Assembly: GCF_029360775.1 (NCBI RefSeq)
Contig: NZ_JARKMZ010000005.1
Coordinates: 14,464-78,463, forward strand
Origin: Daejeonella sp. H1SJ63
GTDB lineage: Bacteria; Bacteroidota; Bacteroidia; Sphingobacteriales; Sphingobacteriaceae
Direction: 5' to 3'
Length of the DNA: 64,000 nt
Within the stretch, counting starts at the first letter, position 1, and the number at the start of each line of letters is the position of its first letter. The position numbers and the translations under genes were made by a program. Shown here in pieces: positions 20,469 through 31,502 of the stretch. The notes beneath the pieces are model-generated. The model was not told the DNA's origin. It saw only the letters and a program-made list of their open reading frames with translations, and searched no databases.

Positions 20469-21803
20469 TTAGCTAAGCAATTTTTCAATCGCACTCTCTA
20501 CTTTTTCAAATCTGAATCCCGACAAAATCTCTCTGAATGAGGCATTTATCCGCTCATTGCAAAGATTTCCTATACTGCCTTCATGCGTATGCTTCACACT
20601 TGCCGGTGCCTTAAACTCACCCCTTTCAATTTCAATTCCAACCTTCCTATACGCTTCACGGAAAGGCATCCCATTGATTACCTCTGCATTTACCGCATCA
20701 ACGCTGAACAAATAAGCATATTTTTCATCCTTCAGGATATCTTCTTTAATGCGAATCGACTGAAGCATGAAAGAAGTCATTTCAAGGCATTCATTCAATG
20801 ATTTGAATGCCGGAAACAGATTTTCTTTCAGCAATTGCAGATCACGGTGATAGCCTGATGGCAGGTTGGTGGTCATCAAAGCAATCTCATTCGGCAGGGC
20901 CTGAATCTTATTGCACCTTGCTCTGACCAGCTCAAACACATCCGGATTTTTCTTATGCGGCATGATGCTCGATCCGGTGGTCAGTTCATCCGGAAAGCTG
21001 ATAAATGCAAAGTTCTGATTGATGAATAAACAGGCATCCATAGCCAGTTTCGCCAATGTAGCAGCAACAGCCGACATCGCCTGAGCCAGAATCCTTTCTG
21101 TCTTACCACGTCCCATTTGTGCATAAACCACATTATAATTGAGATCTTCAAAACCCAACAATTCGGTGGTCATGGTACGGTTCAGAGGGAAGGATGAGCC
21201 GTATCCTGCAGCCGAACCCAGTGGATTTTTATTACAGATCTTCCAGGCGGCCAGCATCAGCTCCATATCATCAGCAAGGCTTTCGGCATAAGCACCGAAC
21301 CATAATCCAAATGAAGAAGGCATGGCGATCTGTAAATGTGTATAGCCCGGAAGTAATTTATCTTTATGCTCTTCGCTTTGTGCAATCAGTTGAGTAAATA
21401 AAATATCAGTATTTCTGACCAAATGCTGTATTTCGCTACGGAAGAATAACTTCAGATCCACCAGAACCTGATCATTTCTTGAACGTCCGCTATGGATCTT
21501 CTTCCCGGCATCACCGATACGACGGGTCAGTAATAACTCAACCTGTGAGTGCACATCCTCCACATCAGGCTCAATACTGAACTTGCCTTCCTGAACCTCT
21601 TTAAATATCTGTTTCAGTCCGGCCTGCACCTGATCAAGATCCTGCTTCTCCATCAAACCAATGCTCTCCAGCATGCGCGTATGAGCCAGCGATCCGAGCA
21701 CATCAAATGCGGCAAGCTGATTATCCAGCTCACGATCATTTCCAACAGTAAACTTCTCTACCGACTGTTCTGTTCCTTTGTCTTTTTGCCAGAGCTTACT
21801 CAT
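20469..21803 (-). CDS. argH: Argininosuccinate lyase
   Basis: Last step of arginine synthesis: argininosuccinate to arginine plus fumarate. The 444-residue protein has the superfamily signature GSSIMPHKKNP at 277-287 (with the mobile catalytic serine), SGRSRNDQV near 105-113 and the catalytic-histidine segment GYTHLQ (His 156). Its ATG overlaps the stop of the upstream GNAT gene (ATGA), indicating coupled translation. Confidence 0.96.
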   Translation of the reverse strand: MSKLWQKDKGTEQSVEKFTVGNDRELDNQLAAFDVLGSLAHTRMLESIGLMEKQDLDQVQAGLKQIFKEVQEGKFSIEPDVEDVHSQVELLLTRRIGDAGKKIHSGRSRNDQVLVDLKLFFRSEIQHLVRNTDILFTQLIAQSEEHKDKLLPGYTHLQIAMPSSFGLWFGAYAESLADDMELMLAAWKICNKNPLGSAAGYGSSFPLNRTMTTELLGFEDLNYNVVYAQMGRGKTERILAQAMSAVAATLAKLAMDACLFINQNFAFISFPDELTTGSSIMPHKKNPDVFELVRARCNKIQALPNEIALMTTNLPSGYHRDLQLLKENLFPAFKSLNECLEMTSFMLQSIRIKEDILKDEKYAYLFSVDAVNAEVINGMPFREAYRKVGIEIERGEFKAPASVKHTHEGSIGNLCNERINASFREILSGFRFEKVESAIEKLLS

Positions 21804-22393
21804 AAGTTTGAAGTAAAATTTGTAAAATATTGTTCTTTAATGGTATCCCATTCAGATTTCAGAATACTGTAAAACACTGTATTCCTGATATATCCGTTAT
21901 GGATCTTCATATGTTCGCGTAATACACCTTCACGGCTTGCACCAATACCCAGCAATGCCTGCCTCGACTGATGATTGCGTTCGTCTGCTTTAAATTCTAT
22001 GCGGTTCAATCCCAGCTTCTCAAAGCCATAGCTTAAGATCAGGAATTTCATTTCCCTGTTCAGTCCGCTACCCTGAAAATCTCTTCCAATCCAGGTCCAT
22101 CCAATCTGACCGCGTTCATCTTTCCAGGATATTTCAGCAAGGCGGGTACAACCTGCTACCTTATTTGTACGTTTATCTATTATCGTCCACACTGCCGCAA
22201 TACCCTGCTCACGGTCGGCAAGAGCATCAAGAATATATTTCTTCAATTCACCGGGCTGCGAGAGGTCTGTTAATCCATAGATCCACAAAGCATCATCATC
22301 CGCCACTTCCTGCAATTCAGATTCGTCTTCCAATGTAAGCGGACGTAACAATGCCCGTTCACTCTCCAGATGAATATTCAGGTCTCTTTCCAT
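21800..22393 (-). CDS. GNAT family N-acetyltransferase (RimJ/RimL-type) inside the arginine operon
   Basis: A 197-residue GNAT protein of the RimJ/RimL branch: RALLRPLTLEDESEL at the start, QIGWTWIGRDFQGSGLNREM with the acetyl-CoA pyrophosphate loop (DFQGSGLN), then LGLNRIEFKADERNHQSR and REHMKIHNGYIRNTVFYSI. It overlaps the upstream argE' stop (TGATG) and the downstream argH start (ATGA), so it is locked into the operon. Possible substrates are an N-terminal amine or an amino acid of the pathway; none is shown. The ATG at 22393 is preferred to a TTG three bases before it. Confidence 0.88.
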   Translation of the reverse strand: MERDLNIHLESERALLRPLTLEDESELQEVADDDALWIYGLTDLSQPGELKKYILDALADREQGIAAVWTIIDKRTNKVAGCTRLAEISWKDERGQIGWTWIGRDFQGSGLNREMKFLILSYGFEKLGLNRIEFKADERNHQSRQALLGIGASREGVLREHMKIHNGYIRNTVFYSILKSEWDTIKEQYFTNFTSNL

Positions 22394-23451
22394 CAACAGA
22401 TCTCCGAAATTAATTTGATATAGAGTTCAATCCCTTCTTTGATCTCATCCACAAAAACAAACTCGTCTGCCATATGTGAACGTGCCGAATCACCAGGTCC
22501 AATCTTCAGGGAAGTAATATCCAATAAGGCCTGATCGCTGGTTGTTGGTGAACCATAGGTCTTTCTTCCCATAGCAATGCCTGCCTTCACAATCGGATGA
22601 TCAAGTGGTATAGACGATGGCTTCAGACGGGTTGATCGTGGATTTACATCACAGCTAACATGATTAGAGATAATCTTCAGTACTTCCTCATTTCGATAGG
22701 CATCAGTTACACGTACATCCACTGTAAACTTACAGATAGCCGGTACCACATTGTGCTGAGAGCCGGCTTCAATAACCGTTACACTCATTTTTATCGGGCC
22801 AAACAGCGCTGATTTCTTGGCAAATTCATAAGTTCTGAACCATTCAATATCCTTAATTGCCTTATAAATGGCATTCTCACCCTCCTCACGTGCCGCATGA
22901 CCAGCCTTTCCATGTGCCACACAATCAAGCACCATTAAACCTCTTTCAGCAATAGCCAGATCCATCAGGGTAGGCTCGCCTACAATGGCAAAATCAAGTG
23001 GCCCCAATTCTGGAATAATCAGTTCAATTCCGTTCTTCCCTGATATTTCTTCTTCTGCAGTTGCTGCCAGGCATAAGTTATATTTAAGTGCCTTTTTATC
23101 GTAAAAGTGCCTGAAGACGGCAATTAATGCCACCAGACATCCCCCTGCATCATTGCTCCCGAGTCCGTAAAGTTTGCCTTCTTCAATATCTGCTGAAAAT
23201 GGATCACGCGTATATCCTGAATTCGGCTTCACCGTATCATGATGCGAATTCAAGAGAATAGTAGGTTTCGAAGCATCGTAATGCTTATTGAAAGCCCATA
23301 CATTATTCAGCTTTCTGTGAGTTTCAATACCATGCTCCTTCAAAAAGAGTTCAATTGCCGCCGCAGTATTTTCTTCTTCCTTACTGAAGGAGGGAATACT
23401 GATCAGCTTACACAGAAGGTCAAGACTGTCTTGAAACAGTGTATCGGTCAT
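22393..23451 (-). CDS. argE': M20 family deacylase of arginine synthesis (N-acyl-citrulline deacylase type)
   Basis: Zinc-dependent M20 amidohydrolase of 352 residues. The metal ligands can be seen: HHDTV (His 70/71, Asp 72), SNDAGG (Asp 101), the Glu pair in TAEEEISG (about 132-135), and a late His in RSHMADE. In Bacteroidota with an ArgF' enzyme this gene removes the acyl group from N-acyl-citrulline, giving citrulline for ArgG. The acyl group may be succinyl here, judged from ArgF' residue 90. Position between proC and argH supports the role. Confidence 0.88.
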   Translation of the reverse strand: MTDTLFQDSLDLLCKLISIPSFSKEEENTAAAIELFLKEHGIETHRKLNNVWAFNKHYDASKPTILLNSHHDTVKPNSGYTRDPFSADIEEGKLYGLGSNDAGGCLVALIAVFRHFYDKKALKYNLCLAATAEEEISGKNGIELIIPELGPLDFAIVGEPTLMDLAIAERGLMVLDCVAHGKAGHAAREEGENAIYKAIKDIEWFRTYEFAKKSALFGPIKMSVTVIEAGSQHNVVPAICKFTVDVRVTDAYRNEEVLKIISNHVSCDVNPRSTRLKPSSIPLDHPIVKAGIAMGRKTYGSPTTSDQALLDITSLKIGPGDSARSHMADEFVFVDEIKEGIELYIKLISEIC

Positions 23452-23453
23452 TA

Positions 23454-24272
23454 TTAATCGTTTGTGTATAATTCACCGGCTTTTTGTGCCGATAATTTTA
23501 TGCCTTTTATCATTGATGAGCTAAAGCCCTGATGTTCCATTTCATTCAGTCCGGCAATGGTGCATCCTTTCGGAGAAGTTACCTTGTCTATCTCTTGTTC
23601 CGGGTGACTGTTCTGCTGCAATAAAAGAGAAGCTGCACCTTTAGCCGTTTGAGCTGCCATGCGCAAAGCTTCCTCTGCATGGAAACCAATTTCCACTCCC
23701 CCCTGTGATGCTGCACGAACCGCTCTCAGGAAAAACGCGACACCACAGGCACATAAAGCTGTAGCGGCAGTCATCAGATCCTCATTAATTTTGATTACCT
23801 GTCCAACCGTTTCAAACATTCTGGTCACTTCTGTAATATTTTCTGCATCTGCATTGTCAGACGCCACACAAGTCATTGATTCACCAATAGCGATTGCTGT
23901 ATTCGGCATAGCACGAACTACCTGAACCCGGCTGCCTAATTTGGCACGGACATCAGCACAGCTTACTCCTGAGATCACCGAAATAATCAAATGTTTTGCC
24001 GGATCAATGGCACCATCAATCTGCTCGAGCAAATTATCAAGCTGCTGAGGTAAAACGGCAAGGATCACCACAGAGGCCCCCGCAGCCGCAGCATAATTGT
24101 CTGAACTTACATTATAGCCCTGTGCCTGTTCGGCACTCAGATTTTGTACATTACGGCGGGTGAGGGTAATATCAGAAGCTGCGCAATAGTTTGCCTTAAC
24201 AAGTCCTTTTGCGAGTGACATCCCGATATTTCCACTTCCCAGAATAGCTGTCTTTTTTGCGGTGTTTCCCAT
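23454..24272 (-). CDS. proC: Pyrroline-5-carboxylate reductase
   Basis: Reduces pyrroline-5-carboxylate to proline with NAD(P)H. The 272-residue protein has the Rossmann motif GSGNIGMSLA at residues 12-21, VRAMPNTAIAIGE, and the C-terminal signature with SPKGCTIAGLNEME. It sits between argB and argE', overlapping argB by one base (TAATG), so proline and arginine synthesis from glutamate are transcribed together. The other proline genes (proA, proB) are not in the window. Confidence 0.95.
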   Translation of the reverse strand: MGNTAKKTAILGSGNIGMSLAKGLVKANYCAASDITLTRRNVQNLSAEQAQGYNVSSDNYAAAAGASVVILAVLPQQLDNLLEQIDGAIDPAKHLIISVISGVSCADVRAKLGSRVQVVRAMPNTAIAIGESMTCVASDNADAENITEVTRMFETVGQVIKINEDLMTAATALCACGVAFFLRAVRAASQGGVEIGFHAEEALRMAAQTAKGAASLLLQQNSHPEQEIDKVTSPKGCTIAGLNEMEHQGFSSSMIKGIKLSAQKAGELYTND

Positions 24273-25096
24273 TAGTTAATATTTAGTCGTGTTCCGAAAT
24301 TCTGTTCGTCCAGTTGGCTTAGGGCACCTGCCTTACCGATATATACATCTTTTACCCCCTGATTAATTGCCTCAAAAGCATTATCCAGTTTCGGGATCAT
24401 CCCCTCGCTGATTACATCCTGACGCTTGTATTCATTATAGGCGTGCGGATCAATCGTTCTGATTAAGGAATCTTCATCGTTCACATCCTTCAGTACCCCT
24501 GCTTTTTCAAAGCAATAGATCAGGGATGTTTCATATTCTCCGGCCATCGCGATTGCAATTGCTGATGCAATGGTATCGGCATTGGTATTCAGAAGCTGGC
24601 CTTCACCGTCATGTGTAATGGCAGAAAACACCGGAGTAAATCCGGCTTCCAGTAGCTTGCTCAATCCTTTATGATCAACTGAGTCTTCTTTCAAATCGCC
24701 TGCAAAGCCATAATCAACCTGAATATTTTCTCCCTTTTCAGTGGAAAACACCTCCTTAACCGGACGGCGTTTCGCACGGATCAAATTTCCGTCGGCTCCC
24801 GACAGGCCGATTGCATTGCATTTTTCCTGCTGTAAGCCTGCCACAATATTCTTGTTCAGCAATCCGGCATAAACCATGGTTACCACTTTCAAACTTTCAG
24901 CATCTGTAATTCTGCGGCCTTCAACCATTTGCGATCTGATACCCAGGTCGGCGGCTAGCTTGGTGGCGATCTTTCCACCACCATGTATCAGGATCTTATG
25001 TCCCTTTAATCCGGCAAAGTCTGTAATAAACTTTTTCAAATCTTCAGGATGATCTATCACATTACCACCTATCTTGATAACGTTTAAAGATTTCAT
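24272..25096 (-). CDS. argB: Acetylglutamate kinase (N-acylglutamate kinase)
   Basis: Phosphorylates the gamma-carboxyl of N-acylglutamate. Amino acid kinase fold, with IKIGGNVIDHPE at the start, LIHGGGKIAT, LSGADGNLI and the nucleotide-site region LLNTNADTIASAIAIAM. I start at the ATG at 25096 (274 residues), which overlaps the argF' stop as ATGA; the longer reading from 25141 adds 15 residues (MVSTDRIKKYAGGTK) encoded inside argF'. The family is usually described with acetylglutamate; the neighbouring ArgF' suggests the succinyl form here. Confidence 0.94.
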   Translation of the reverse strand: MKSLNVIKIGGNVIDHPEDLKKFITDFAGLKGHKILIHGGGKIATKLAADLGIRSQMVEGRRITDAESLKVVTMVYAGLLNKNIVAGLQQEKCNAIGLSGADGNLIRAKRRPVKEVFSTEKGENIQVDYGFAGDLKEDSVDHKGLSKLLEAGFTPVFSAITHDGEGQLLNTNADTIASAIAIAMAGEYETSLIYCFEKAGVLKDVNDEDSLIRTIDPHAYNEYKRQDVISEGMIPKLDNAFEAINQGVKDVYIGKAGALSQLDEQNFGTRLNIN

Positions 25097-26055
25097 TTTA
25101 GTCCCTCCAGCATATTTTTTAATACGGTCTGTGCTGACCATACCCTGTTGGCAGCTTCCTTAATCACCAGAGAATGCGGTCCGTCAAGAACCTCTGCAGA
25201 AAGTTCGAAATCACGGCGTACCGGCAGACAATGCATTACTTTTGCTTCATTGGTTTGCTCCAGTTTTTTATGAGTCATCATCCATGATTCTCCACCGCTG
25301 ACGGTCTTGCCGTAGTCCTGGTAGGAAGACCAGTTTTTGGCATAAACAAAATCAGCTCCCTGAAGGGCCACATCCTGATCGTATTCAATCCTTGCTCCGG
25401 GAGTAAATTTCTCTGCCAGCTCAAGTCCTTCGGGATGAGTAATCACAAAATCGATCATTCCATCAGCCTGTGCACGGCACATCCACTCTGAAAATGAGTT
25501 TGGAACGGCCTGAGGTAATGATTTTACATGCGGAGCCCAGGTTAATACCACCTTTGGCTTCACTACTTTCTTATTTTCCTCAATTGTGATCAGGTCGGCA
25601 AAACTTTGCAGAGGATGCAGGGTTGCACTTTCCAGACTTACTACCGGAACTCCACTGAATTTTACAAATTTGTTAAAGAGACCTTCACTGTAATCTTCTT
25701 CACGATTCTGCAGTTTTGGGAAAGAGCGGAAACCCAGAATGTCGCAATACTGCCCCATTACAGCAGCAGCCTCGCGGATATGCTCAACTGTTGTTCCGTT
25801 CATCACAATCCCATCCTCTGTTTCAAGTGCCCAGCCTTCCTTGTCCAGGTTCATCACCATCACATTCATACCCAGATTCATTGCTGCCTTCTGTGAGCTA
25901 AGACGGGTACGCAGACTTGGATTCAGGAATACCAAACCCAGAGTCTTGTTCTTACCCAAACCCTGATTTGCATAAGGATCAGCCTTCTGGATCAGCGCCT
26001 GCTCAACAAAGGATTTCAGATCAGCAACGTCATTAACGGAAGAAAATAATTTCAT
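25093..26055 (-). CDS. argF': N-acylornithine carbamoyltransferase, predicted N-succinylornithine type
   Basis: Carbamoylates an N-acylated ornithine to N-acylcitrulline; a hallmark of arginine synthesis in Bacteroidota and Xanthomonas. Visible features are the carbamoyl-phosphate site SLRTR (47-51), HPLQSFAD, and HCLPVRR near the C-terminus. As I recall it, the Bacteroides fragilis succinylornithine enzyme aligns without gaps over the first 100 residues and has Pro 90, where the Xanthomonas acetylornithine enzyme has Glu 92. Here residue 90 is Val (GTTVEHIREA). Replacement of that Glu by Pro, Ser, Ala or Val is reported to switch preference to succinylornithine. Substrate is therefore inferred, the family is sure. 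Confidence 0.93.
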   Translation of the reverse strand: MKLFSSVNDVADLKSFVEQALIQKADPYANQGLGKNKTLGLVFLNPSLRTRLSSQKAAMNLGMNVMVMNLDKEGWALETEDGIVMNGTTVEHIREAAAVMGQYCDILGFRSFPKLQNREEDYSEGLFNKFVKFSGVPVVSLESATLHPLQSFADLITIEENKKVVKPKVVLTWAPHVKSLPQAVPNSFSEWMCRAQADGMIDFVITHPEGLELAEKFTPGARIEYDQDVALQGADFVYAKNWSSYQDYGKTVSGGESWMMTHKKLEQTNEAKVMHCLPVRRDFELSAEVLDGPHSLVIKEAANRVWSAQTVLKNMLEGLK

Positions 26056-26077
26056 ATAATTTAAAAATAACGATATC

Positions 26078-27211
26078 TTATTTATTCAATTCTGCTTTCA
26101 GGGCAATCAAAAACTGATCAGCATGTGCTTTGGTTATATTCAAAGCAGGTAATAGTCTGATCACATTCGGCTTAGCCTCTCCTGTAAAGATACGATGTTT
26201 AAAAAGTAAATCTTTTTTAACGTTTGCATACTCTTCCGACAGCTCAATTCCGATCATCAGGCCCCTTCCTCTTATCTCAGAAATCTGCGGAATCTGCTTT
26301 AATTCAGCAATCAGATAGTTGCCGATATCTTCTGCATTTTTCATCAACTGATCCTGCTCCATTACCTCCAGAACTGCCAGTGCCGCTGCACAGGCGAGAT
26401 GATTACCGCCGAAGGTGGTTCCCAACATACCATGCCATGGTTTGAACTTCGGGCCAATGGAAATACCTCCAACCGGGAAACCGTTACCCATACCCTTAGC
26501 CATAGAGTAGATATCCGCATCCACGCCGGCATAATCATGAGAGTAAAAATTACCTGTCCGGCCATAACCACACTGTACCGAATCGGCGATGTAGACCGCA
26601 TCATACTGATCGCATAGGCTTCTTATCTTCTGAAGAAAGCTCTTTGAGGCTTCCCTGATTCCTCCTACACCCTGAATTCCTTCAATGATTACTGAGGAAA
26701 TCTCATTTCCGAAAGATTTGAATGCATCATCCAGCGCTGACTCATCATTGAATGGAAGGAATACTACATGATCAGTCTGATTTACAGGAGCGATGATCTT
26801 TGGATTATCTGTGGCAGAAACTGCCAGTGATGTACGTCCGTGGAAAGCACCTTTGAAGGCAATAATCTTTTTTCTGTTATTGTAGAAAGATGCCAGTTTC
26901 AGTGCATTCTCATTGGCTTCAGCGCCAGAATTACATAAAAACAGTTGATAATCAGGCTTTCCTGATAATTTACCAAGCTTCTCAGCCAGCTCAATCTGCT
27001 GTCTGATGATTACCGAATTAGAGTAAAACCCAACCTTATTCAGCTGATCAGACACACGTTTCACATAATGCGGATGTGTATGACCAATGGAGATCACAGC
27101 ATGACCGCCATAAAGGTCGAGATACTCATTACCATCGCTATCCCATACATTACTTTGGGAAGCTTTTACTATTTCAATTTGGTTTAGGGGATATACGTCG
27201 AATAATTTCAT
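26078..27211 (-). CDS. argD: Acylornithine aminotransferase (class III)
   Basis: Converts N-acylglutamate semialdehyde to N-acylornithine with glutamate. The 377-residue class III aminotransferase has the phosphate-binding SGAEANENALKLA (about 95-107), KGAFHGRT (120-127), the Asp 210 that contacts the pyridine nitrogen, and the cofactor lysine Lys 239 in MAKGMGNGFPVGG. It lies 22 bases upstream of argF'. On its 5' side the S23-type insertion separates it from argC. Confidence 0.94.
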   Translation of the reverse strand: MKLFDVYPLNQIEIVKASQSNVWDSDGNEYLDLYGGHAVISIGHTHPHYVKRVSDQLNKVGFYSNSVIIRQQIELAEKLGKLSGKPDYQLFLCNSGAEANENALKLASFYNNRKKIIAFKGAFHGRTSLAVSATDNPKIIAPVNQTDHVVFLPFNDESALDDAFKSFGNEISSVIIEGIQGVGGIREASKSFLQKIRSLCDQYDAVYIADSVQCGYGRTGNFYSHDYAGVDADIYSMAKGMGNGFPVGGISIGPKFKPWHGMLGTTFGGNHLACAAALAVLEVMEQDQLMKNAEDIGNYLIAELKQIPQISEIRGRGLMIGIELSEEYANVKKDLLFKHRIFTGEAKPNVIRLLPALNITKAHADQFLIALKAELNK

Positions 27212-27220
27212 TTTTTGGAA

Positions 27221-27251
27221 GTTATACGTTGTAAGTATTACGTTATACGTT
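27221..27251. repeat. TACGTT-rich repeat, left arm around the S23 gene
   Basis: GTTATACGTTGTAAGTATTA followed by CGTTATACGTT. It resembles the reverse complement of the block at 27792-27823. It lies nine bases from the argD start codon. Confidence 0.5.
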
Positions 27252-27300
27252 CAATGATTACCAAAATCAGCTGAAACGCATTTGTTTAAATAACTACAAC

Positions 27301-27660
27301 TCAAATTGTATTACGAACTTTACTTATCAAAGAGATCAGCATTGCTTTGATCTCATTTATATTATCATACAGAATATTATGTTCATTTCCCGGGAGATAA
27401 TTCAAGTCACGGGACAGGAGCAAAAAGTACTCTGCTTCATTGGCCGAACCTAAAGCGATATTTAAAAAATTTGCTAAATCTTTTTGAGATTTTTTACCGC
27501 ATCCTTCAGCGATATTGGCCGGTATCGCTGAGATACTTCGTCGCAACTGACTTGTTAAACTGTAAAGCTCTTCTTTTGGGAAGCAGGAAGTCACCTGATA
27601 TACATTTAGTGTTAGCTGATGTGCTTTTACCCAAACATTTAATTCCTTATAATTCTGCAT
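27301..27660 (-). CDS. Four-helix-bundle protein of the 23S rRNA intervening-sequence (S23) family
   Basis: A 119-residue helical protein with the family pattern YKELNVWVKAHQLTLNVY, FPKEELYSLTSQLRRSISAI and NIAEGCGKKSQKDLANFLNI. Relatives lie in intervening sequences of 23S rRNA genes and, in Bacteroidota, as scattered single genes; the biochemical role is not known. I start at the ATG at 27660, with AGGAG about 15 bases upstream; the reading frame stays open for 37 more codons to 27771. It interrupts the arginine operon between argC and argD and is bracketed by TACGTT-rich inverted repeats. Confidence 0.88.
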   Translation of the reverse strand: MQNYKELNVWVKAHQLTLNVYQVTSCFPKEELYSLTSQLRRSISAIPANIAEGCGKKSQKDLANFLNIALGSANEAEYFLLLSRDLNYLPGNEHNILYDNINEIKAMLISLISKVRNTI

Positions 27661-27791
27661 AAACAAATCTAAGGCTCCTAAACAGGAACCTATAAATGAC
27701 TTATTTTGCAGTAAGGATAATGCACCTAACATTTTAATATTTACTAATTCATTTAACCACTTATGCTTCATATCAATCGAAGCTAAGTCTA

Positions 27792-27823
27792 AACGTAAAA
27801 CGTAACAACGTAAAACGTAAAAC
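27792..27823. repeat. TACGTT-rich repeat, right arm around the S23 gene
   Basis: AACGTAAAACGTAACAACG followed by TAAAACGTAAAAC, directly abutting the argC stop codon. In reverse complement it matches most of the block at 27221-27251. Confidence 0.5.
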
Positions 27824-28807
27824 TTAAAAAGCTGCCGCTTTCAACTTAAGTCCGGTCATCTCATCAATGCCAAACATTAAATTCATATTCTGCACAGCAT
27901 GACCGCTTGCTCCTTTCAACAGATTATCTATAATGCTGATAATAAACAATTTGCTGTCGTGCTTCTCCAGATGAATCAGCGCCTTGTTGGTATTCACCAC
28001 TTGCTTAAGGTCGATATTCCTTGTGCTGACATGAGTAAATGGATGATCTCTGAAATAGCTCTCATAAAGTACATAAACTTCATCCAGACTCAAATCAGAT
28101 TCAGTGTACATCGCTGCCAGTATACCACGGGTAAAATCACCTCTCTGCGGTATAAAATTAAGCGCCTGATCAAAATCACTTTGCAGCTGTTTCAGGCTCT
28201 GACCAATTTCATTCAGGTGCTGGTGTTCAAAGGCTTTGTAAACCGAAAGGTTATTATTTCTCCAGCTGAAATGAGACGTCGGGCTAAGGCTTTGTCCTGC
28301 ACCTGTCGAACCCGTTGTAGCATTGATATGAACCTCTGCATTCAGATTTCCGGAAGCTGCCAGCGGTAAAAGTCCAACTTGTATACAGGTTGCAAAACAA
28401 CCCGGATTAGCAATATTCTGAGCCTCTTTGATTGCCTTTCTGTTCAGCTCAGGGAGTCCGTAAACAAAAGTTCTGTCGCCATGAACAGCGTTTTTACTTA
28501 ATCTGAAATCCTGTGAAAGATCAATGATCCTGATCCCTGCATTGATTTCATGATTATCCAGAAATTTTTTGGCATCCCCATGTCCAACGCAAAGGAACAA
28601 TACATCAATTTCCTGCGAAATGGAATCGGTAAACTTCAGATCGGTATCACCAAACAGGTCGGCATGCACATCAGAAAGGGGCTTACCCGCATTACTGTTA
28701 CTGTGTACAAAAACAATTTCCGCCAAAGGATGATGGATCAGTATCCTGAGCAATTCACCTCCGGTATAACCTGCTCCGCCAGCAATTCCAATTCTGATTG
28801 TTCCCAT
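27824..28807 (-). CDS. argC: N-acetyl-gamma-glutamyl-phosphate reductase
   Basis: NADPH-dependent reduction of N-acylglutamyl phosphate to the semialdehyde. The 327-residue protein opens with the Rossmann motif GIAGGAGYTGGEL and has the catalytic cysteine Cys 137 in NPGCFATCIQ. A later STGSTGAGQS-like segment (TTGSTGAGQSLS) is typical of the family. Its start lies five bases after argG. The 3' side runs straight into the S23 insertion. Confidence 0.95.
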   Translation of the reverse strand: MGTIRIGIAGGAGYTGGELLRILIHHPLAEIVFVHSNSNAGKPLSDVHADLFGDTDLKFTDSISQEIDVLFLCVGHGDAKKFLDNHEINAGIRIIDLSQDFRLSKNAVHGDRTFVYGLPELNRKAIKEAQNIANPGCFATCIQVGLLPLAASGNLNAEVHINATTGSTGAGQSLSPTSHFSWRNNNLSVYKAFEHQHLNEIGQSLKQLQSDFDQALNFIPQRGDFTRGILAAMYTESDLSLDEVYVLYESYFRDHPFTHVSTRNIDLKQVVNTNKALIHLEKHDSKLFIISIIDNLLKGASGHAVQNMNLMFGIDEMTGLKLKAAAF

Positions 28808-28812
28808 TTTTT

Positions 28813-30006
28813 TTATTTCTTTTCATTCACCCGGTGCCAGATCATCGTCTGGTTACCAAATATTTTCGAGAAGCCTTTCACATCTTCTCCTGACCATGAA
28901 TTATTCATTTCACCATAGCTTCCGAACTTGTTCGACATCAGATCATGAGCCGATTCGATACCAACGATCTCAAAACGGTAAGGATGAAGTTTCACAAATA
29001 CCTTTCCTGTGACGGTTTTCTGAGTATCTGTTAAAAATGCCTCAATATTACGCATAATCGGATCGTGGAACTGGCCTTCATGCAGCCAGTTTCCGTAGAA
29101 ACTTGCCAGCTGATCCTTCCAGCTCAGTTGCCATTTGGTCAGAGTATGCTTCTCCAGGGCATGGTGTGCCTTGATAATAATCATCGGCGCAGCCGCCTCA
29201 AAACCAACACGACCCTTGATTCCAATAATAGTATCCCCTACGTGAATATCGCGACCAACACCATAAGGCTGAGCAATTTCCTGCAATTTCTGAATAGCCC
29301 TAACCGGCAGCATACTTTCGCCATTCAATCCTACAAGTTCTCCCTGTTCAAACTCAAGCTCCAGCTTACGTGGCTCGGTTTGGGTTACCTGAGTTGGCCA
29401 TGCTTCTTCAGGTAAAGTATCATGAGAAGTCAGTGTTTCTGCACCGCCTACTGATGTACCCCAGATTCCTTTATTGATTGAATATCTGGCCTTTTCAGCA
29501 GTATACTCAACACCGTGCTTATTCAAATATTCAATTTCAGCTTCCCGGCTTAACTTCAGGTCGCGGATTGGAGTGATAATCTCTACACCCGGAATCAGGA
29601 TATTGAAGATCATATCGAAACGGACCTGGTCATTTCCTGCACCAGTACTTCCATGAGCAACATAATCAGCACCAATCATTTTTACATAATTAGCAATTGC
29701 AGTTGCCTGACTAACACGCTCAGCACTTACTGAAAGCGGATAAGTAGCATTTTTAAGCACATTACCAAAGACAAGATATTTAATACAGCTTTCGTAGTAA
29801 TTCATGGTTTCGTCAACCACTGCGTGAGAGGTTACACCCAGAGCATACGCACGTTTCTCGATCTGTTTCAGCTCTTCCTCAGAAAAACCTCCTGTATTTA
29901 CGATCACGGAATGAACTTCCAGATCACGGTCTTTAGTTAAGTATATACAGCAAAAGGACGTATCTAAACCTCCGCTGAATGCTAAAACCACCTTCTTCTT
30001 CATCAT
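28813..30006 (-). CDS. argG: Argininosuccinate synthase
   Basis: Joins citrulline and aspartate with ATP. The 397-residue enzyme has the N-type ATP pyrophosphatase P-loop LAFSGGLDTS at residues 8-17 and the HGSTGAGNDQVRF block. Two ATG codons stand side by side at 30006 and 30003. The stop of the upstream GNAT gene directly abuts the first ATG. In this operon it is the second gene, so its substrate is made by genes further downstream. Confidence 0.96.
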   Translation of the reverse strand: MMKKKVVLAFSGGLDTSFCCIYLTKDRDLEVHSVIVNTGGFSEEELKQIEKRAYALGVTSHAVVDETMNYYESCIKYLVFGNVLKNATYPLSVSAERVSQATAIANYVKMIGADYVAHGSTGAGNDQVRFDMIFNILIPGVEIITPIRDLKLSREAEIEYLNKHGVEYTAEKARYSINKGIWGTSVGGAETLTSHDTLPEEAWPTQVTQTEPRKLELEFEQGELVGLNGESMLPVRAIQKLQEIAQPYGVGRDIHVGDTIIGIKGRVGFEAAAPMIIIKAHHALEKHTLTKWQLSWKDQLASFYGNWLHEGQFHDPIMRNIEAFLTDTQKTVTGKVFVKLHPYRFEIVGIESAHDLMSNKFGSYGEMNNSWSGEDVKGFSKIFGNQTMIWHRVNEKK

Positions 30007-30729
30007 TTAATTTTGTAAAAGTTTAACAAATATTGTTCCTGCAGCTATCATTTTTAATGATCTGCGTAATTTTTCTTCAATGCGCTCAAACAATGTCTGT
30101 TTACGTGCAACCTTAGTCAAACGATCTTCAACCTCTTTTTCCAAACGATCCTGTTCTTCCTTCATCTTTCGTTCAATTTCCTTCGCTTTTTCCTCCGGAT
30201 CCCAGAGCATTGCAGTACACATGCAGTTCTTACGATCTTTGCTTTTCAGGATCTCATAGTTTACACAACTCTGGCAGCCTTTCCAGAATTCCTCATCCTG
30301 AGTAAGTTCAGAATAAGTTACCGGCTCATAGCCCAGCTCTGAATTGATCTTCATCACTGCAAGCCCTGTGGTTAGTCCAAAGATCTTCGCATCAGGATAT
30401 TTCTTGCGCGAAAGGTCAAACACCGCACGTTTGATCATTCTTGCCAAACCTTTGTTGCGATACAGAGGATTTACAATCAGTCCGGAGTTAGCCACAAACG
30501 TTCCATGACTCCAGGTTTCGATATAGCAAAACCCTGCCCATGTACCATCCTGATGAATAGCAATTACCGCTTTCCCCTCCAGCATTTTATTGCTGATGTA
30601 TTCAGGGGTACGCCGGGCGATCCCGGTACCACGGGCTTTGGCAGACTCCGCCATCTCATCACAAATGAGTTCGGCGTATTTGATATGTTGTTCTGTTGCC
30701 GGGATGACAACAAACTCGTTTTCTTTCAT
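30007..30729 (-). CDS. GNAT acyltransferase, predicted N-acylglutamate synthase of the arginine operon
   Basis: First gene of the arginine operon. The GNAT domain (about 5-145) has the coenzyme A loop in YRNKGLARMIK (90-100). Then come four cysteines in the pattern CxxC-x13-CxC (152, 155, 169, 171), which may bind a metal, and a long charged coiled coil (about 177-225). Mutant-fitness work in Bacteroides thetaiotaomicron assigned the equivalent argG-linked GNAT gene to N-succinylglutamate synthesis, from memory. No classical argA or argJ occurs in the window, so this gene is the natural candidate for the first step. The acyl donor is inferred. Confidence 0.8.
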   Translation of the reverse strand: MKENEFVVIPATEQHIKYAELICDEMAESAKARGTGIARRTPEYISNKMLEGKAVIAIHQDGTWAGFCYIETWSHGTFVANSGLIVNPLYRNKGLARMIKRAVFDLSRKKYPDAKIFGLTTGLAVMKINSELGYEPVTYSELTQDEEFWKGCQSCVNYEILKSKDRKNCMCTAMLWDPEEKAKEIERKMKEEQDRLEKEVEDRLTKVARKQTLFERIEEKLRRSLKMIAAGTIFVKLLQN

Positions 30730-31502
30730 TGATTTAAAGAAAAAGTCCGGTTTTTAAGCGGAAAAAAGAAACGATCTTATTATTTCTTTCTGTGAATAAT
30801 TCAATTAATTGAACCGGCGGTCGAATATTTACCGCAGAAATGGAGGCAGATGCCAGGAATCAATTCCGGGGCATAAAGGGTCGTCGGAAACGCAACACTA
30901 ACTTTTCAGGCCTGAAATGACTACAAACAATACCCCTCAGTGAAGCACTGTAGCTTCCCGATCCCGTACTGGCCTGGTAGTTTAAACTATTCATTTTTAA
31001 TAGTATATGTGTTTCTGATTTTTTTTACAAAAGACCAAAAAAATACTGAATAATGCAATAAAAATGGTTTTTTTTAAGAAGCGCCCTGCTGCCTGTAAAT
31101 TATATTTTTTATACAAGAAGATATCTAAGGTAATACATTGAAAATGAAAGACTAATATGAAGACAGGCGAGGTTTCAATGCCCTTAAAAGAATGCTAATC
31201 GCCTGTGCCGGGTTTAAGATGACAAATTTCGGAAATGTTGCGGCCTGATATCCTCCATTTTTATTGGGGAAATTATACCTGATTCTCCTTCCTTTACGAG
31301 GAAGTATAAGTAAATATTCTCTCCTGTTTTGCTGCTCAGCAAGGGCTTGGATATCCTTTCGTTGGCAACACCGGCAGGTGCCTGATAAAACCCCAATTCA
31401 AAAAAACTATGTATCTCTTGATTTCATCAGACAAATCTTTAAATTGCTGAATATCTTGTTTCTAAAAGCAGGTTTTTCAAAAATAATAAGTCCGGTAAGT
31501 CC
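30730..31502. other. Long intergenic region between the arg operon and the APC permease
   Basis: Holds the possible leader ORF (30860-30994), a 12-base palindrome TAGTTTAAACTA (30978-30989) at its 5' end, and homopolymer-rich stretches near 31010-31080. An open minus-strand frame of about 65 codons (31214 to about 31410, with a possible TTG start at 31396) encodes FYQAPAGVANERISKPLL and KTGENIYLYFLVKEGE; I recognise no family and see no ATG, so it may be a gene remnant. No tRNA or known riboswitch is apparent. Confidence 0.5.
30860..30994 (-). CDS. Possible arginine-rich leader peptide of the arg operon
   Basis: A 44-codon ORF from an ATG at 30994 to a TGA at 30860, about 130 bases upstream of the first arginine gene and on the same strand. 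Six of the 44 residues are Arg, four of them in the last ten codons (VLRFRRPFMPRN), including two adjacent CGA codons. Downstream, minus-strand GCGGT/ACCGC and CCGGTT/AACCGG can pair in competing ways, and AAAGAAA/TTTCTTT is followed by T residues. This is the layout of a translational attenuator. It could also be a chance ORF. Confidence 0.4.
   Translation of the reverse strand: MNSLNYQASTGSGSYSASLRGIVCSHFRPEKLVLRFRRPFMPRN

Follow-up and report, generated by a model that had tools for sequence, protein, structure and literature searches.

Several leader sequences described in other bacteria are related to the element reported here. The leader orf34/speFL of the ornithine decarboxylase gene speF, found in Salmonella and E. 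coli, carries two consecutive rare Arg codons that sense arginine, and a shortage of Arg pauses ribosomes at the Arg codons and alters the fold of the mRNA (PMC6386406). The rare Arg codons of rbfL, the leader of rbf in Staphylococcus aureus, sense arginine shortage via tRNA charging (PMC13009471), whilst TnaC, a tryptophan-sensing arrest peptide, carries R23 (PMC8429421). In the available part of a transcriptome study of Flavobacterium psychrophilum, signs of leader-peptide attenuation are reported before amino acid operons, among which arginine is not named (PMC9723704). The open-access papers searched described no leader that responds to arginine in front of a bacterial arg biosynthesis operon; as subscription journals lay largely outside this coverage, the novelty of such a leader is provisional.

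A leader of this kind probably precedes the arg operon of Daejeonella sp. H1SJ63 (Sphingobacteriaceae), which is contained in a 64,000-nucleotide stretch of its genome, hereafter the window; the closest named relatives of the GNAT gene at the head of this operon belong to Daejeonella. We hold with moderate confidence that the element acts in cis as a leader-peptide switch through which arginine controls the arginine biosynthesis operon. The features of the locus, in the direction of transcription, are as follows.

31028-31058, minus strand: Bacteroidota-type promoter-like element, TTG (31058-31056) and TTTG (31031-31028), from direct reading.
30860-30994, minus strand: leader ORF of 44 codons with an ATG start and a TGA stop, from direct reading; conserved in relatives.
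30881-30886, minus strand: tandem rare Arg codons CGA CGA, the proposed stall site; identical in 136/136 relatives.
30866-30868, minus strand: penultimate Arg codon CGG, followed by one sense codon and the stop.
30850-30874, minus strand: P1 hairpin ATGCC/GGCAT, spanning the end of the leader ORF and its stop codon, here extended by GGAA/TTCC.
30817-30835, minus strand: P2 hairpin GCGGT/ACCGC, with arms at 30835-30831 and 30821-30817.
30763-30791, minus strand: P3, an A/T-rich hairpin AGAAAGAAA...TTTCTTT, then T.
30746-30762, minus strand: P4, a short hairpin TCCG/CGGA then CTTTTTCTTT, immediately before the start codon; its role is putative.
30007-30729, minus strand: first operon gene, a GNAT acetyltransferase with a weak PF00583 match (22.2 bits, cut-off 20.7).
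20469-30006, minus strand: argG, argC, a 23S_rRNA_IVP-type four-helix-bundle gene, argD, an N-acetylornithine carbamoyltransferase gene, argB, proC, an ArgE/DapE deacylase gene, a GNAT gene and argH.

The first gene (30007-30729) had no NCBIfam match, was present in 307 of 331 genomes of the family and may be a candidate N-acetylglutamate synthase; behind this GNAT head the operon runs in the order argG-argC-argD-argF'-argB-proC-argE-argH. Two further genes lie within the operon. Between argC and argD is one for a four-helix bundle of the type of 23S rRNA intervening-sequence proteins (PF05635; 27301-27771, minus strand), and the ArgE/DapE gene is separated from argH by another GNAT gene, which starts with TTG (PF13302; 21800-22396, minus strand). 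Five genera of the family with small genomes of approximately 1.0-2.4 Mb (g6, g9, g11, g23 and g24) were without the GNAT gene, and these may be arginine auxotrophs.

Direct reading of the leader ORF bore out the preliminary description of a 44-codon ORF with six Arg codons, four of them among the last ten and two of them adjacent CGA codons, about 130 bases before the first gene of an arginine operon; the gap from the stop codon to the GNAT ATG (30729) on the minus strand is 130 bases. The three stems it had listed in the leader, namely GCGGT/ACCGC, CCGGTT/AACCGG and an A/T stem followed by T, were all present in the sequence. The ORF translates as MNSLNYQASTGSGSYSASLRGIVCSHFRPEKLVLRFRRPFMPRN, with an Arg-rich C-terminus (LRFRRPFMPRN, then the stop), and the fixed rare Arg codons sit 6-9 codons ahead of the stop. 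The 44-residue product matched no Pfam family, including PF10940, no second copy of the leader was found in the same genome, and none of the Rfam models matched at gathering score, the only matches being chance-level ones (E 1.7-4.9).

The promoter-like element is located approximately 35 nt upstream of the leader ORF and has the form TTG-N22..25-TTTG, which we take to be close to the Bacteroidota -33/-7 pattern. Among 135 leaders, 79 carried this form within the 15-95 nt that precede their ATG, compared with 4/89 and 3/89 control stretches, and the TTTG mostly ended 33-39 nt ahead of the ATG. The element TAnnTTTG alone occurred in 92/135 leaders versus 21/91 and 26/89 controls. A version of the promoter pattern with a shorter spacer was rejected, as it was not enriched (12/89 versus 8). 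Transcription would be expected to start at about 31022-31024, and a promoter in this position should place the ORF within the transcript; a transcription start downstream of 30860, which the preliminary description had named as a finding that would tell against it, is not what the likely promoter indicates.

Stretches upstream of the GNAT gene were collected from 17 genomes of the same genus, 80 named loci and 80 more loci of the family, and yielded 136 distinct leaders. These are 39-48 codons long, with 44 the usual length and 41 that of Mucilaginibacter, and end approximately 80-150 bases ahead of the GNAT gene. Almost every member of the Sphingobacteriaceae examined had an equivalent leader of about 40-46 codons in this position, and the CGA CGA pair was invariant in all 136. 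One additional locus (L105) had CGA CGG in place of the pair, two (L081 and L110) had variant leaders ending in PRR and the stop, with a perfect hairpin GACGC-TGAT-GCGTC that holds the stop codon in its loop, and one stretch (L135) contained no recognisable leader. In the large genus g14 (loci L265-L284), 20 of 20 loci had a 44-codon leader that lacks the Arg pair and ends ...RQ[NL][FY]TPRI before the stop, its single internal Arg codon being CGG in all 20. The stop codon varied among TGA, TAA and TAG. Conservation of the ORF and of its Arg codons, which the preliminary description had proposed to check in aligned leaders, was found to reach far beyond close relatives.

Outside the family, a leader was counted when an ORF of 28-66 codons stopped 60-190 bases ahead of the gene and had at least three Arg residues among its final twelve. 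Of 34 loci from other families, 22 had a leader with such an Arg-rich end. These class-level leaders were picked for Arg richness, so that only the position of the Arg residues, and not their presence, counts there as independent evidence. In 100 sets of shuffled sequences the mean was 0.77 such loci and the maximum 3, and the same count made with other amino acids gave 0-7 loci, the 7 being for Ser, which alternates with Arg in Myroides, where leaders end, for example, SRSSRSRA before the stop, with CGG and CGC codons. Because of the shuffle test, the leader ORF is not a chance ORF, and it is conserved through several families of the class Bacteroidia.

Codon usage separates the internal Arg codons from their neighbours. 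Within window ORFs of 200 aa or more, CGA made up 6.7% of Arg codons and CGACGA none of 27 Arg-Arg pairs; CGG, the internal codon of g14, is also rare in the window (6.9%). The penultimate residue was Arg in 175 of 178 leaders (134/136, 20/20 in g14 and 21/22 in other families), with varying codons. Around the Arg pair in 91 leaders, residue -2 was Arg in 83 (all six codons used), residue -3 was Leu in 79 (at least six codons), residue -4 was conserved as V/I with changing codons, Pro occupied +2 in 88 and +5 in 90 (four codons each), and Arg occupied +6 in 89 (four codons). The resulting C-terminal consensus, [PL][VI]LRxRRP[IF][LM]PR[ATV] and stop, draws on as many as six synonymous codons at a position, and the PR-x-stop end is retained even in leaders without tandem Arg. 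These patterns suggest that selection acts at two levels, on the codons themselves for the internal Arg and on the amino acids for the neighbours; the former points to tRNA-limited decoding and the latter to a nascent-peptide effect.

Consistent with the first of these, Arg tRNA genes with the anticodons ACG, CCG, TCT and CCT, one each, were identified from 30 of 35 tRNA matches that were read individually, and no tRNA-Arg with the anticodon TCG was among them. The ACG anticodon is presumably modified to ICG, and inosine reads CGA by the established wobble rule, so that with this set of Arg tRNAs CGA would be read only by the single tRNA-Arg(ACG).

Under the arginine-responsive switch that we favour, RNA polymerase would start approximately 30 nt upstream of the leader ORF and ribosomes would translate the ORF. 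With ample Arg-tRNA, they would reach the stop and leave, and the leader fold would either hide the start of the first gene or end transcription. When charged Arg-tRNA is low, ribosomes would stall at CGA CGA, the leader would re-fold and the operon would be switched on. A ribosome with the second CGA in its A site would cover the 5' arm of P1, and in Sphingobacterium and Parapedobacter it would also cover CGACGACC, the strand predicted to mask the start region, thereby freeing the operon. In Daejeonella the step that is switched could be either translation initiation or termination. The conserved non-Arg residues that flank the codons count against this scheme, as starvation sensing alone needs none. 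Also against it are the terminator scan, which gave no site, the folds with placed ribosomes, in which start-site accessibility changed little or not at all, and the restriction of the CGACGACC complementarity to two genera, all described below.

The leader resembles orf34/speFL in being a short ORF with two consecutive rare Arg codons and a hairpin near its stop, which in orf34 lies just downstream of the stop; unlike it, the present leader belongs to a different phylum and precedes arginine synthesis, whereas speF serves polyamine synthesis, and the orf34 peptide is DUF2618 (PF10940), a match that the leader here lacks. In orf34, moreover, rare and frequent Arg codons are equivalent and the Arg near the stop is dispensable, whereas here both features are conserved (PMC6386406). 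The likeness to rbfL lies in rare Arg codons that would report arginine shortage; the difference is that pausing in rbfL blocks the next start and represses rbf, a biofilm regulator, with no conserved RNA switch and no arg operon.

The main rival to starvation sensing is a nascent-peptide arrest induced by arginine, in which, when arginine is plentiful, ...RRPFMPR[AVTI] would stall the ribosome at or near the stop in the manner of TnaC and keep the operon off. The near-universal penultimate Arg with its varying codons, the C-terminal residues kept as amino acids under synonymous change and the survival of PR-x-stop after loss of the tandem Arg would all be expected of it, and the leader shares with TnaC-type peptides a sequence conserved at the amino-acid level next to the stop. 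TnaC too has an Arg, R23, beside its last residue. Unlike the present leader, TnaC controls a catabolic operon, and the conservation of internal rare codons is a feature of the leader here. An arrest has no need of these fixed codons (CGA CGA in 136/136, CGG in 20/20), and the variation of the stop codon is also at odds with it; we regard arrest as a possible but rather unlikely explanation.

The hairpins bear on how a stalled ribosome might be read out. P1 with its flanks folds at -9.8 kcal/mol, and equivalent hairpins were found in other groups with arms that differ between groups; the mean z was strongest in Sphingobacterium (-2.25, 47 sequences), followed by the Pedobacter-type group (-2.16), was moderate in Daejeonella-type leaders (-1.34) and weak in Mucilaginibacter. 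A hairpin occupies the P2 place in relatives, and covarying pairs were found at P2 and P3 in Sphingobacterium. In close relatives P3 is formed by AAAGACTA/TAGTCTTT (10) or AAAGAAA/TTTCTTT (7), with changes on both sides, and within Daejeonella its pairs are GACTA/TAGTC or GAAA/TTTC. The TCCG/CGGA of P4 is retained in relatives with variation of the adjoining base, and its T-run can alternatively pair with AAAGAAAA directly past the ATG.

A loop-loop helix can form in Sphingobacterium, Parapedobacter and a related genus between the P2 loop and the CGR GCT codons that precede the stop. At the third base the pair is A-T in 35 sequences, G-C in 22 and G-T in 2, and 2 sequences do not pair, which reads as a double change with both partners kept matched from genus to genus. 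Complementarity between the CGACGACC strand and the nucleotides immediately preceding the start codon was seen in 36/47 Sphingobacterium and 5/9 Parapedobacter sequences (shuffle p<=0.05). Daejeonella, Mucilaginibacter and the Pedobacter-type group lacked it, and pairing of this strand with the start codon was rejected as a general mechanism, being confined to the two genera. Hairpins enclosing the start codon are visible in Daejeonella and g14 but do not exceed shuffled sequences (z -0.24 and -0.72), and were likewise rejected.

Classical transcription attenuation of the trp/his type, with P3 or P4 as an intrinsic terminator and an antiterminator, was considered in the light of these structures. 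As in his/trp-type attenuators, clustered codons for the product, here conserved as codons, lie in a leader upstream of the matching biosynthetic operon with a hairpin over the ORF end, and Daejeonella has both an A/T stem then T and a short G/C stem then a T-run. Unlike those attenuators, the leader is long (41-46 codons), has conserved non-regulatory residues and lacks a demonstrated terminator/antiterminator pair. A scan of 30600-31200 for intrinsic terminators found no terminator-like site, stems with T-runs in the Daejeonella leader are A/T-rich or very short only, and a T-run after the last hairpin is missing in the other groups. The search for an antiterminator utilized static folds with a ribosome footprint placed at one of three sites, namely the second CGA, the stop or an upstream control. 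Accessibility of the start site was unchanged in these folds in Daejeonella, Mucilaginibacter and the Pedobacter-type group and changed slightly in Sphingobacterium, and alternative pairing between region 2 and region 3 was not found in them. CCGGTT/AACCGG, which had been put forward as an alternative stem, was rejected as a conserved one because relatives carry TCGG or ACGG where its second strand has CCGG.

Transcription attenuation does gain some plausibility from a his leader that this genome also contains. A His-rich ORF with the motif HHVHFHH (MNKVFTHHVHFHHRFAAM and stop; locus L233, 2176-2262, minus strand) lies upstream of hisG (start 2109), ends in HHVHFHHRFAAM and the stop, and is followed by short hairpins and a T-run; it is a candidate his attenuator, and its presence makes leader ORFs of such type plausible in this organism. 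On balance we consider classical attenuation of the arg operon doubtful. The preliminary description had suggested a possible attenuator, and of this the arginine control by a leader ORF is supported, whereas transcription attenuation in the classical sense was left without terminator or fold switch; the element is not classed as a classical transcription attenuator because no terminator was called and the folds gave no switch beyond the weak effect in Sphingobacterium.

It is improbable that leader translation serves mainly to shield the RNA from decay or Rho-dependent termination and that arginine acts via ribosome speed, a partly speF-like scheme for which the control of Rho and RNase G by translation of the Salmonella speF leader is a precedent (PMC6386406), since the conserved hairpins suggest a folding switch. 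The remaining reading, in which the ORF specifies a small protein with a function of its own or is open by chance across an RNA element, is highly improbable despite the conserved amino acids near the end of the ORF, as the N-terminal half is not conserved between genera whilst length and place are kept, and chance is excluded by the shuffle test.

The probabilities attached to these readings overlap in part because a sensing step and an output step can combine. In other bacteria the same pathway is regulated by the arginine repressor ArgR/AhrC; ArgR (PF01316) was found neither in the genome of strain H1SJ63 nor in any of the 61 Sphingobacteriaceae genomes searched, and a control search for PF01316 was positive in 9 of 14 named genomes, including those of E. 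coli, B. subtilis and a Bacteroides. The lack of ArgR in these searches favours the arginine-responsive switch. As a tentative and rather speculative extension of the arginine-responsive switch, one ribosome could give two readouts, rare-codon sensing of Arg-tRNA and arrest at the penultimate Arg, which would replace ArgR across Bacteroidia with a regulated step that depends on the genus.

The control of arginine synthesis in Bacteroidota without ArgR is apparently undescribed, and the leader offers a concrete answer. The combination of a fixed CGA CGA with a penultimate Arg provides a natural system for separating the effects of tRNA charging from those of the nascent peptide, and the variety of RNA outputs from genus to genus would show one sensor coupled to different switches.
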